Under the pieces are notes generated by a model. It did no database searches. It saw nothing but the letters and a program-made list of their open reading frames with translations, and was not told where the DNA came from. The translations under genes and the position numbers were made by a program. From Xylanimonas allomyrinae (GTDB lineage: Bacteria > Actinomycetota > Actinomycetes > Actinomycetales > Cellulomonadaceae), in NCBI RefSeq assembly GCF_004135345.1, contig NZ_CP035495.1, positions 3,224,001 to 3,288,000 on the forward strand: a stretch of DNA of 64,000 bases, given 5' to 3'. How positions within the stretch are numbered: the stretch's first letter is position 1; every line of letters starts with the position of its first letter. This document shows, one piece after another, positions 14,611 through 35,575 of the stretch.

Positions 14611-17600
14611 ATGAGGCGGGTTGTCGGGAACACTCGCGGTGCGGCCGCGGTCGCAGCGGCGATGGGCCGAGTCGGCGACCATCGGGTCCCGCCCGGCGTG
14701 CGGCATCATCGCGCCGCAGGTCGCCCACCGGCGCGGCGGCGGATCGCGGTGGTGGGCATCCTTGTGCTGCTCGTCGGCGTGCTGGCCGCCGTACTCATCG
14801 CCCTGACGCAGACGACCCCTCCTGCGTTCGCCGAGAGCAACCCGGCGAACAGCACCGTGCGTGGCGCGCAGACCTGGTACGCGTACGTCGGCGCCGGCGA
14901 GAGCCTGTCGGTGCGGTTCGACCGGGCCGGACGGGACTACAACGGCTGGGGTGACACCAGCAGGATCGAAGTCGCAGGCCCTGAGAACGGCGGCGCGGTG
15001 GTGTTTACGTGCGACGTCGACCTGAGTACCAGCTCGCCCTGCACCTTTACCCCCCGGAGAGGAGTACGCCGGGGGTCTACAGCATCGAGCTCAAGCCACG
15101 CGAGAACTCCTCCAACACGCTCGGCAATGTCACCCTCAACTGGGACATCACGGTGAAGAGGGGCGGGGTGGCGCGCCCCGGTCGTGTCTGGACGGAGCAC
15201 TACGTGCTCCGTGACGTGTACAGCAGCAGCGCAGACACCAGTGTGAACCTCGTGCTCTACTACCAGTCGGTCTACGGGTTCACCTACAAGACCCAACGAA
15301 GCGGCCTGAACGGCGCCGACTCGCGGTTCGTCGCGAACGCCTACGGGGCCGTCAACAGAGACAGCTGTACCTCGTCCCACCTGTCGATCCCGAACAGGGA
15401 GCTCCGGGACGCCAAGAATGTCTCCGGGGAGTACGGCGAGCTCGGAATCCCTGCGGACAACACGAAGTGTCGGTTCACGCCGTACAAGATCTTCTTCGAA
15501 CCGCCAAGCGAAGACCTTCCCCCCAGCGTGACCGTTCCCGACAAGGCGACGGGATCCATGAAGACCACGTGGCTGCGCGTGAGCCCTCCGGAACCACAAG
15601 AGATCAACGTGACGAACCTGACGTTCGCCCCCACGGGCGAAGGGTCGCGTGCCGGAGTCATCACCTTCGGCGTGAGCAAGCACGACGGTCAGGCGGTGGT
15701 ACAGGTCGACGTCAACAACGACGGCCAGTTCGACGGTCCCCTCGACCGGGTGTTCGACGTCCAGGTGCTCGCGGGCGAGCAGGTCAGGCTTCCGTTCGAC
15801 GGCAAGGACGCACGGCGCAACGACATCTCACCGACCACGCCGCTGGCGGTGCGCGTCGTCGTACCGTCCACAGGAGAGGTTCACTTCACCGACTTCGACG
15901 TCGAGATCCTCACCAATGGTCTGGAGGTCACGCGACTCAACGGCCCGCAGGCAGGCCGGACGAACGTCTCGTGGAACGACACGCTGATCGACAGCCAGAC
16001 GAGGAGCGGACTCGGCAAGTGCTCGCGGGTGAGTGCCACCTCAGGAACCAACGTCGACAGCACACCGGGTGTCCACTACTGGGGCATGGGCGACTGCATC
16101 GTCGAGGAATCCGACAGGCCGAACGTCTGGAACCCCAGGGGGCTAGCCAGTCGGAACACCTTCGGGACGTGGGGCAACCTCGCCGCGATCGACAACTGGG
16201 CGAACGTGCCGGTCAACCGGCAGGCCACGCTCGAGGTTCCCGCGTTCTCGATCGCCAAGGAGGCCACACCGGCTGCGGGCACCGCCGTCAAGCCCGGTTC
16301 GAAGATCACCTACCAGATCACCGCGAGCCCGGTGAGGTACAAGTTCCCGGCCACGGGCAATGACGGCGACGCGTGGATCCCCGCGACCACCTGGAGCGGG
16401 CGCTACGCCGACTCCGCCGCGTCGGTCGCAACCTCGGCGACCATCGACTGGTCCACGCTGGCGAACAACCCCGGCACCGGCAATCGTGCCTCCGTCGCAT
16501 CCACGAAGGACGGCTACTCCTGGGTCGGAACCGCGGTGCCGATCGGATCGGGCGTGGTGACCACGTACGACGCGACGGTCAAGCCGGCGAGCGAGCTGAG
16601 CGACCGCGCGCAGCTGCGCAACCTCGCGTTCGTCGTCACCGGGGACACTCCCGTACCGCCGCCGACCTGCGTGCCGGGACTGTGCGGCGAGACGGTCCAC
16701 CCCGCCGAGGTGATCGACGTCGTCAAGACGTCCAACCCGGAGGACGGGACAAAGGTCGATCCCGGCGGCGTCATCCAGTTCACGCTCACGTTCACCAACC
16801 GCAGCGCCGTCGCGGTCACTCCCACGTACTCCGACAACCTGGCCGGCGTCGTCGACGACGCCGTGGTGGACCGCTCCTCGATCTCGGCCAACAACGGGCT
16901 CCAGGCCCGATGGACCGACCAGGGGCCGGCGATCGAGGTGGGCGGCACGCTGGCCGCGGCAGGCGCCTCGGGGCCGACCGTGGGCACCGTCACCTACCGG
17001 GTGACGGTCAAGGACTCCGGGTTCGCGGACGGCGTCGTGCGCAACGTCGTCGTCGTGACGGGTCAGGATCCTGGCAGCACGTGCGCGCCGGGCGACCCGC
17101 TGTGCACCGAGCACCCGGTGACGGGGAGCTTCTTCGTGACCAAGACGTCCGACCCGGCGACCGGCGCGTACGTCTCCCCGGGGGACACCATCACCTACAC
17201 CGTCACCGCAACGGGGCGCGGGACGGGGATGGCGGGCATCGTCCTGGACGACAACCTCAAGGGAGTCCTCGGGAACGCCACGTTCGTCGCGGGATCGGCC
17301 ACGCTGACCGTGGCCGGTGGCCAGCCGACTCAGGTCGCCGACCCCGTCGGCGCGCGCCTCGTCTCGGGCTCGTTCGACCTGGCCGAGGACGAGACCGGCG
17401 TCCTGCGCTACTCCGTGAAGGTGAACGACGGCGCCTGGTCGAAGAAGCTCGACAACGTCGCGGGCGGGCGCGGCGAGGGCGACACCCCGCCCACCACGTG
17501 CGACCCGTGCACGACGACGCACACGGTCACGGCACGCATCGAAGTCCTCAAGATGAGCTCGTCCCTCGGCGGGTCGGCGCCGATCTCGGGCTCCGAGTGG

Positions 17601-18041
17601 GCGGTCTACGTCGACAAGGACGGCCTGATGGGCGAGCAGGTGACGAAGCCGGCGGTGCAGGCCGTGCCGGGCACGATCGGCAGGTTCGAGCTCGCGGGCA
17701 TCGTCCCGGGCACCTACTGGCTGACCGAGACCCGTGCGCCGGACGGCTTCACCCTCCTCGCGGAGCCGGTGCGCTTCGACGTCAGCGACAGTGGTGCGGT
17801 GTCGCTCCGCGACGCGGACCGCCAGGGTCAGGCCGTCACCACGGTGGTCGACCAGGGCACGGCGGTCATCACCGTGCGGAACGTGACGACTCCCGTGATC
17901 CTGCCCCTGTCGGGGGACACGGCGAAGGGGTCCCGGCCGTACACGGTGGCGGGAGGGTGCCTGCTGGTGATGTCGCTGTCGACGCTGCTGGCCGAGACCA
18001 CCAGGCGCCGCCGCGCCCGGCGGCACGGCAGCCGCGCGTGA
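14611..18041 (+). CDS. Large sortase-anchored adhesin-like protein (apparent frameshift)
   Basis: About 1143 residues when rejoined. The N-terminus is basic, with a hydrophobic helix ([20 protein letters not shown], ~45-64) ending PPAFAES, a likely signal peptide. The middle has two DUF11-type conserved repeats, starting [20 protein letters not shown] and [19 protein letters not shown], about 140 residues apart. A SpaA-type prealbumin-like domain follows (RIEVLKMSS ... [14 protein letters not shown]). The sorting signal is LPLSG at about 1098, then a hydrophobic stretch and a basic tail. The frame breaks at the CCCCCC run 15050-15055; one more C gives [24 protein letters not shown] lies 5 nt before ATG 14611. 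It is probably an adhesin or stalk protein; the ligand is unknown. Confidence 0.85.
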
Positions 18042-18123: not shown

Positions 18124-20121
<1,998 letters not shown>

Positions 20122-20180: not shown

Positions 20181-20210
20181 AGTGTAGACCCACAGGTGAC
20201 AGGGGTCACA
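20181..20210 (-). promoter_or_regulatory. acs promoter with CRP/GlxR-type operator
   Basis: On the minus strand a -10 TACACT occupies 20186-20181, with GTGACC 17 bp upstream as a weak -35. Overlapping that -35 is GGTGA-CAGGGG-TCACA (20195-20210, plus-strand reading), one mismatch from the CRP consensus TGTGA-N6-TCACA. acs genes are classic CRP/GlxR targets; binding here is inferred. Confidence 0.65.
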
Positions 20211-31796: not shown

Positions 31797-33097
31797 TCAG
31801 CCGGCGAGCACCTGCGCCATCGCCCGCGTCAGGTACCACGGGTCGACGACGGCGGTCAGTTCGCGCGCGGAGTGCATCGACAGGATCGGCACCCCGACGT
31901 CGACGGTGCGCAGCCCGAACCGTGTGGCGGCGATCGGCCCGATGGTCGACCCGCACGGGATCGCGTTGTTGGACACGAACTCCTGGCTCGGCACGTCCGC
32001 GGCCGCGCATGCGGCCTGCCAGCGCGCGGCGCCGTGCGCGTCCGTCGCGTACCGCTGGTTGGCGTTGATCTTGAGGATGGGGCCGCCGCCCGCGACCGGG
32101 TGGTTGGCCGGGTCGTGCCGCTCGGGGTAGTTGGGGTGGACGGCGTGCCCGACGTCGGACGACACGAGGAACGACGCGGCGAACGCCTGCGCGCGCTGCT
32201 CGGTGGTCGCGCCGAGCGCGGCGGACACGCGGGTGAGCACGTCGCCGAGCAGCGGCCCGCCGGCGCCGGACCGCGTCTGGGAGCCGATCTCCTCGTGGTC
32301 GAACGCGGCGATCACTTGCACGCTCGGCCCGGTGCCCGCGACGCTCAGCAGTGCCGCGAGCGCGGCGTGCGTCGACAGCAGGTTGTCGAGCCTTCCCGAC
32401 GCCCACAGGGCGCCCCCCGCCCGAACGCACGTGGTGCCTGCGTGTCCGCGACGACGACGTCGTACCCGCCGATCGCGGCCGGGTCGACGCCGGCGCCGTC
32501 GTCGGCGGTCGCGGCGAGCGCCGCGAGCACGTCGGCCTCGGACGGGTCGCCCAGTCCCCATACGGGCTGGGTGTGGCGCTGCTTGTCGAGCGTGAGGCTC
32601 TCGTTGGCCGACCTGTCGAGGTGGACGGCGAGCTGTGGCAGGCGCAGCAGCGGCCCGGTGCGTACCAGGTGCTCGCTGCCGTCGAGCAGCACGAGGCGTC
32701 CCGCGAGCTCGAGCTCGCGGTCGAGCCACGAGTTGAGCAGCGGCCCGCCGTAGACCTCGACGCCGGCCTGCCAGAACCCGTGTCCGCCGGTGGTGGGGCG
32801 GGGCTTGAGCTTGAAGCCGGGTGAGTCGGTGTGCGTCCCCAGGACGGTGAACGGGGTCGTCGGCCCGGCGTGGGCGGGCACGGCGAACGCGACGACGGAG
32901 CCGTCTCGCACGACGACGTAGCGGCCGCCGGGCTCGATCGCCCAGGCGTCGGTCTCGTCCAGCGGGGCGAACCCGGCCGCTCGTGCGCGCATTGCGACAT
33001 CGGCTGCGGCGTGGAACGACGAGGGTGAGGCGGTGACGAATGCGCCCAGGTCCTCGACGTGGGCGCGGGCCTGGGCGGGGACGGCGGCGATCGGCAT
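31797..33097 (-). CDS. M18-family aspartyl aminopeptidase (apparent frameshift)
   Basis: About 433 residues, the usual M18 length. The metal-site motifs are present: GTHTDSPGFKLKPRP (first His/Asp), FDHEEIGSQTRSGA (catalytic Glu pair), SSDVGHAVHPNYPERHDP and GPILKINANQRYATD, then the C-terminal MHSARELTAVVDPW with the last His ligand. It removes N-terminal acidic residues from peptides in the cytoplasm. The frame changes at the CCCCCC run 32413-32418; one more base gives PRAFGRGGALWASGRLDNL. Start ATG 33097 (PIAAVPAQARAHVEDLGAFV). Confidence 0.92.
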
Positions 33098-33157
33098 GCA
33101 CCGCAGTCTCGCATGCGCTATGTCGTGGGCCACGTTGTCGCGCTCTTCACACCCTCT

Positions 33158-33186
33158 CGTGAGAACCGTCACATTGTGGGTACACT
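33158..33186 (+). promoter_or_regulatory. hppA promoter region with CRP/GlxR-type operator
   Basis: CGTGA-GAACCG-TCACA at 33158-33173 is one mismatch from TGTGA-N6-TCACA. A -10-like TACACT follows at 33181-33186; no good -35 is seen, the operator taking its place. The start codon is about 75 bp downstream. Confidence 0.5.
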
Positions 33187-33259
33187 CCCGGCATCCCGTC
33201 GTCAACGACGCCGGCGGGTCCTTTCACCGCCTCGGGGGAGGCGTCGTCAAGGAGGACGG

Positions 33260-35575
<2,316 letters not shown>

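Follow-up and report, generated by a model that had tools for sequence, protein, structure and literature searches.

Upstream of the pyrophosphatase gene hppA in Xylanimonas allomyrinae lies a palindrome of the CRP/GlxR type, and a similar one stands before acs, the gene of acetyl-CoA synthetase. The locus raises the question whether these are operators of one regulator, in which direction that regulator would act, and what purpose a common control of the two genes would serve. The analysed stretch (the window) comprises 64,000 nt (C1:3224001-3288000) of an actinobacterial genome of 3.85 Mb. The hppA palindrome CGTGAGAACCGTCACA has one mismatch to the consensus TGTGANNNNNNTCACA (TGTGA-N6-TCACA). 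It is separated from the -10 hexamer TACACT by the seven nucleotides TTGTGGG and from the hppA ATG, which is preceded by AAGGAGG, by 86 nt. Its left half-site (GTGAG) does not have the C at position 6 that is present in 55% of the half-sites of the genome. The first-pass annotation had proposed a CRP/GlxR-type site before hppA, and this proposal stands: the palindrome lies just upstream of TACACT, is kept in relatives, and occurs in a genome that encodes a single clear CRP/GlxR orthologue. The acs promoter (Table 1) has the same arrangement of a palindrome followed by TACACT. The palindrome reads GGTGACAGGGGTCACA on the forward strand and TGTGACCCCTGTCACC on the minus strand, on which the promoter as a whole is TGTGACCCCTGTCACC-TGTGGGTC-TACACT, and the stretch between palindrome and -10 is alike in the two promoters of this genome (TGTGGGT).

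Table 1. Features of the hppA and acs promoter regions, in window coordinates.
Feature	Position	Strand	Basis
hppA promoter, CRP/GlxR-type palindrome CGTGAGAACCGTCACA (CGTGA-GAACCG-TCACA)	33158..33173	+	sequence; kept in relatives
hppA promoter, -10 TACACT	33181..33186	+	sequence and alignment of relatives
hppA composite operator-promoter, GTGA-N6-TCAC-N8-TACACT	33159..33186	+	composite search (G000:C1:3257159-3257186)
hppA, membrane H+-translocating pyrophosphatase, 771 aa	33260..35575	+	NCBIfam NF001952, 1243.9 bits
acs promoter, CRP/GlxR-type palindrome TGTGA-CCCCTG-TCACC	20195..20210	-	sequence
acs promoter, -10 TACACT, 8 nt past the palindrome	20181..20186	-	composite G000:C1:3244181-3244209
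acs, AMP-forming acetyl-CoA synthetase, 665 aa	18124..20121	-	NF001208, 1014.7 bits; TTG start at 20121 likely

Raw counting of sites in the window shows no enrichment, since with up to two mismatches only 4 matches were found versus 10.6 expected from shuffles. The first-pass annotation had considered two sites in 64 kb to be more than chance would give. This is weak evidence, as the probability of two sites is ~0.19 at the motif density of the genome itself (~0.02 at the density of the reversed pattern), and window counting was dropped as an argument. That the motif is real in this genome follows from the genome-wide search, in which 48 places matched with at most one mismatch versus 13 for the reversed pattern. 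Besides those of acs and hppA there are 46 places, 6 within called genes and 40 between genes. The gene caller was crude and missed some genes, leaving several "intergenic" places without a called gene nearby, so that the number of intragenic sites is a lower bound. On this count, at least 6 of the 46 other sites are inside called genes, and the coding regions do not appear to harbour many equally good sites.

The decisive support is conservation and position, both of which were tested and found to agree with an operator. Upstream regions were drawn from 59 genomes, this one included; 40 of them provided a usable hppA region and 46 a usable acs region. For hppA, six of the 46 genomes with a match were left out as divergent or short (G004, G006, G007, G014, G031 and G046). 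For acs, 13 of the 59 matching genomes were left out, either because they had distant ligases only (G003, G004, G006, G007, G009, G038, G039, G050, G054, G055 and G057) or because the gene lay in pieces at contig ends (G035 and G045). Defined as the core with at most one mismatch followed 4-10 nt further on by TANNNT, the composite was present in 19 of the 40 hppA upstream regions (300 rounds of dinucleotide shuffling: mean 0.03, maximum 1) and in 17 of the 46 acs upstream regions (300 rounds: mean 0.08, maximum 2). The -10 hexamer reads TAGACT or TACACT in 18 of the 19 hppA composites, own genome included, and in 14 of the 17 acs composites. Conservation is high in the arms of the palindrome and far lower in its central bases and in the flanks. 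Both features are expected of a dimer site on a SigA-type promoter.

Both upstream regions were available for 37 genomes, own included; the composite was found at both genes in 14, at hppA alone in 5, at acs alone in 2 and at neither in 16. Conservation is strong, and the pairing of the motif at acs and hppA, which had been suggested from the window, is indeed kept in relatives. The association between the two sites (Fisher P 0.0002 in the 37 genomes, 0.026 within the family) is not relied on because the genomes are related. The nearest named hppA loci include those of Cellulosimicrobium, Isoptericola, Promicromonospora, Oerskovia, Sanguibacter and Cellulomonas, which presumably belong to the family searched. 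In more distant actinobacteria the hppA palindromes, where present, mostly lie farther upstream and do not form part of a composite, a position from which activation would be possible; the core is exact in L075, L085, L086, L094, L096 and L117 and weaker in L107 and L118.

Some further observations concern the surroundings of acs in relatives. In six genomes (G037, G040, G043, G048, G053 and G058) a single contig carries crp, acs and hppA within a span of ~20-45 kb. The distance between crp and acs is 1-3 kb in G042, G047 and G048, and in this genome crp is 0.8 Mb away; the linkage may be ancient. A set of acs leaders in which the exact CRP site is absent (L151, L152, L156-L158, L227, L228 and L230) has two elements near the transcript start, one resembling GGGAC-N4-GTCC and one resembling GCA(C/A)CA-NN-G(T/A)CGATGC.

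The exact composite, GTGA-N6-TCAC-N4-10-TASACT, was searched in 140 genomes of the family, own included, in 133 of which acs and in 124 of which hppA was found at the thresholds used. It gave 100 matches in 58 genomes (reversed pattern: 4), and the positions of hppA (53) and of acs (58) were considered for these 58 genomes only. Within 300 nt upstream of hppA there are 43 exact composites and within the same distance of acs 36, together 79 of the 100, the remaining 21 being elsewhere; the form is shared near-exclusively by acs and hppA. Both genes carry it in 31 genomes, only hppA in 12 and only acs in 5, and hppA is found without it in 81 of the 124 hppA-bearing genomes. The counts are not independent events, because the genomes are related and the 43 hppA composites come from 9 genera. 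Inspection of 12 of the 21 other composites placed one before malate:quinone oxidoreductase (composites similar to this one in G001, G008, G013 and G027 fall outside the 12), and single ones before a secreted M6 peptidase, a UDP-sugar dehydrogenase and a glyoxalase-like protein. Four precede proteins with a similar N-terminus, two of which match the Pfam GAF family, two have no convincing gene and two more stand before unscanned genes. The third exact composite of this genome (C1:2113604-2113629) is one of the four; it precedes a 507-residue protein whose N-terminus resembles that of GAF-domain regulators of G002 and G063.

The CRP orthologue of the genome (225 aa, C1:2432577-2433251) has as best PDB matches the CRP of M. 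tuberculosis (3mzh/3d0s, E ~2e-81) and GlxR of C. glutamicum (4cyd), and is present in 57 of the 59 genomes, own included. A search of the genome with the HTH_Crp_2 profile gave 10 matches, the top one at 70.8 bits and the next two, at 29.5 and 28.4 bits, both just above the cut-off. A single PF00211 match above the cut-off (49.5 bits) has a class III cyclase domain and is a candidate adenylate cyclase, by which the cell would be able to produce cAMP. Among 50 neighbours of the sites that were scanned against Pfam we found citrate synthase, malate:quinone oxidoreductase (Mqo), cytochrome bd, four thiolases, an enoyl-CoA hydratase, two AMP-binding ligases, a phosphoketolase, a dicarboxylate symporter and solute-binding proteins; the remainder comprises regulators, genes of other kinds and a few that matched no family. 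The neighbourhood has the look of a GlxR-type regulon of carbon metabolism and respiration (TCA cycle, respiration, beta-oxidation, transport). The earlier idea of a regulon of acs and hppA therefore does not hold as a closed one: the genome has 48 sites, 40 of them at other intergenic places and many beside genes of these types, and acs and hppA are two members among many.

The direction of control can be approached from the geometry of the promoters. Class I or II activation by CRP proceeds, as a rule, from a site that is centred at about -41.5 or farther upstream. If hppA transcription starts at ~33193, 7 nt past the -10 hexamer, the centre of the palindrome falls at about -28 and the palindrome covers the -35/spacer region. 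The spacing between palindrome and -10 is 6-7 nt in 16 of the 19 hppA composites and 8-10 nt in 16 of the 17 acs composites, distances that are too short for activation of class I or II. In the Sanguibacter-like genus (that of G028) the hppA palindrome lies on the downstream side of the -10 in all six genomes, beginning 23-27 nt beyond the hexamer's first base and centred at about +20, a position that again appears repressor-like; the acs promoters of these six genomes have no exact site. At several loci (e.g. L033, L036 and L041) the -10 persists although the palindrome has gone, so the palindrome seems to be more than a -35 element. Sites over the -35/-10 or the early transcribed region, as found here, are what a CRP-repressed promoter would be expected to have. 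The sign of CRP action is set by the position of the site relative to RNA polymerase (PMC5449483). The overlap with the -35/spacer makes repression likelier than activation, and repression would fit the hppA site better.

Starting from the sites, their position and conservation, the composite form common to acs and hppA, and the presence of CRP with a candidate cyclase, we infer the binding, its sign, the signal and the benefit as follows. The palindrome would be the operator of the one clear CRP/GlxR orthologue; at the SigA-type promoter of hppA, CRP with bound cAMP would cover the -35/spacer and exclude RNA polymerase, and the acs promoter would be occluded likewise. A fall in cAMP would then release both genes. 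We consider it likely that cAMP-CRP represses acs and hppA together in this manner, and a joint shut-off of the two genes is probable. Cells of C. glutamicum have a high cAMP level on glucose and a low one on acetate (PMC4254451); if this pattern holds here, acs and hppA would be released on acetate. Acs would then activate acetate and yield PPi, and HppA would convert this PPi into proton-motive force, with the soluble pyrophosphatase, which has no such site, working alongside. Since the soluble enzyme is encoded (C1:2397662) and the nearest of the 48 sites is more than 45 kb away from it, HppA would be a conditional addition. This logic of PPi recovery is plausible. As a wider and more tentative proposal, to which we give somewhat less than even confidence, hppA would be a carbon-catabolite-repressed gene in the family: cAMP-CRP would repress hppA and acs through the same promoter form, PPi would be recovered only on acetate or other AMP-forming substrates, and growth on sugars would be served by the soluble pyrophosphatase.

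Other explanations of the palindrome have to be weighed against this reading. A chance match would agree with window counts that are no higher than expected, but is hardly credible in view of the composite in 19 of 40 hppA upstream regions versus 0.03 expected from shuffles. The palindrome might also be the site of another dimeric regulator of acetate or energy metabolism, as the assignment to CRP is made from sequence, the stretch TGTGGGT common to acs and hppA may belong to a larger site, and HTH_Crp_2 has two weaker matches just above the cut-off. Against this, the arms agree with those of the other 40 intergenic sites of the genome, the 48 sites (versus 13 in the control) lie in many cases beside genes of the kind that GlxR targets, and there is a single strong match to the CRP/FNR family, which together make another regulator improbable.

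A CRP that activates hppA and acs, as it does acs in E. coli, would have to act through a promoter other than TACACT. Such a role would be in line with the description of GlxR as an activator "in most cases" (PMC4254451) and of E. coli acsP2 as a class III CRP promoter (PMC5449483), and with the palindromes that lie farther upstream in L107 and L118. The close spacings in both promoters and the downstream position in all six Sanguibacter-like genomes nevertheless speak against class I or II activation, and we regard activation as unlikely, if slightly less so than a different regulator. Repression by cAMP-CRP, the reading preferred here, is compatible with a more modest view of its purpose, in which acs and hppA simply belong, like many other genes, to a large CRP regulon of carbon metabolism and have no specific link to PPi. 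It is quite possible, without being what we would expect, that this is the case: the 48 sites have neighbours such as citrate synthase, Mqo, cytochrome bd, the four thiolases, phosphoketolase and transporters, and in relatives the composite is also found at mqo and a GAF-domain regulator. On the other hand, the concentration of 79 of the 100 composites of the 140 genomes on acs and hppA argues against this view, and the two AMP-binding ligases among the site neighbours presumably release PPi as well.

Several observations were made on the hppA leader and its neighbours. A known RNA family or fluoride riboswitch was rejected for the leader, as the scan of positions 33100-33400 produced only two matches, both of them weak (E 0.38 and 7.2) and nowhere near the gathering scores, and Rfam at gathering thresholds gave no match in 20 hppA loci. 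A MAFFT/RNAalifold analysis of 35 leader loci found only a 4-pair hairpin around the Shine-Dalgarno sequence, which in this genome (33245-33258) can occupy the loop of a small hairpin (CGUC-AAGGAG-GACG). The form [AG]AGGAGG is present in 77 of 109 actinobacterial hppA leaders (107 distinct), with a stem of at least 4 pairs in 72 of these 77; compensatory changes are few (L120, L075 and L086), a loose control on genes of the window gave 4 of 14, and the lowest-energy fold of the window's own leader differs from this hairpin. Another hairpin, CCCGUCG-UCAACGACGC-CGGCGGG (33195-33218), is situated near the inferred start of the hppA transcript and has no Rfam match at gathering scores. In relatives its stems differ, and the six-base loop is like AACGAG, AACGGG or GAUGGG. 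On the minus strand at 31797-33097 a divergent M18 aminopeptidase gene is split over two frames near a run of G, owing either to a frameshift in the gene or to an error of the assembly, and at 15009-18041 an ORF of 1010 residues weakly resembles families of LPXTG pilins and DUF11-type repeats.

The type of operator and the geometry of repression are already known, whereas hppA as a target, the promoter form common to acs and hppA, and the range of genomes that have this form appear to be unreported in the literature searched; in the open literature on GlxR/CRP, acs and membrane pyrophosphatase, no report of CRP at hppA was found. A close parallel is the GlxR regulon of C. glutamicum, which has the same consensus TGTGA-N6-TCACA (PMC7999487), an orthologous regulator, and targets in central carbon metabolism and respiration. 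It differs in that GlxR is described as mostly an activator (PMC4254451), whereas the site here overlaps the core promoter, and in that hppA is not among its targets in the literature searched. Crp of Streptomyces coelicolor (SCO3571) is described as having 393 target genes and the motif GTG(N)6GNCAC (PMC10033298, citing Gao et al. 2012). Unlike here, hppA of Streptomyces is preceded at 15 of 23 loci (L081-L133) by a different palindrome, GTGAA-N4-TTCAC. In its full form it is CGTGAA-N4-TTCACG (two begin with AGTGAA) and lies 142-256 nt before hppA, within the 260 nt scanned; being GTGAA/TTCAC, these palindromes were not counted as CRP sites. The membrane pyrophosphatase of Rhodospirillum rubrum under RegA resembles our case in that a global metabolic regulator switches a bacterial enzyme of this type by energy state (PMC11210485). 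The regulator is of another family, in another phylum, and the available text of that source does not mention an acs partner. Since little is known on how bacteria control the expression of soluble and membrane pyrophosphatases, according to the same 2024 review (PMC11210485), the acs-hppA operator is a useful and testable lead. Through a conserved operator common to hppA and acs, the timing and purpose of HppA can be tested directly and cheaply. In E. coli CRP activates acs, whereas the geometry here points to repression, and the prediction is therefore that CRP control of acs would be opposite in sign to that of E. coli. What the two systems would have in common is acs as a CRP target, in E. 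coli through the class III promoter acsP2 (PMC5449483).
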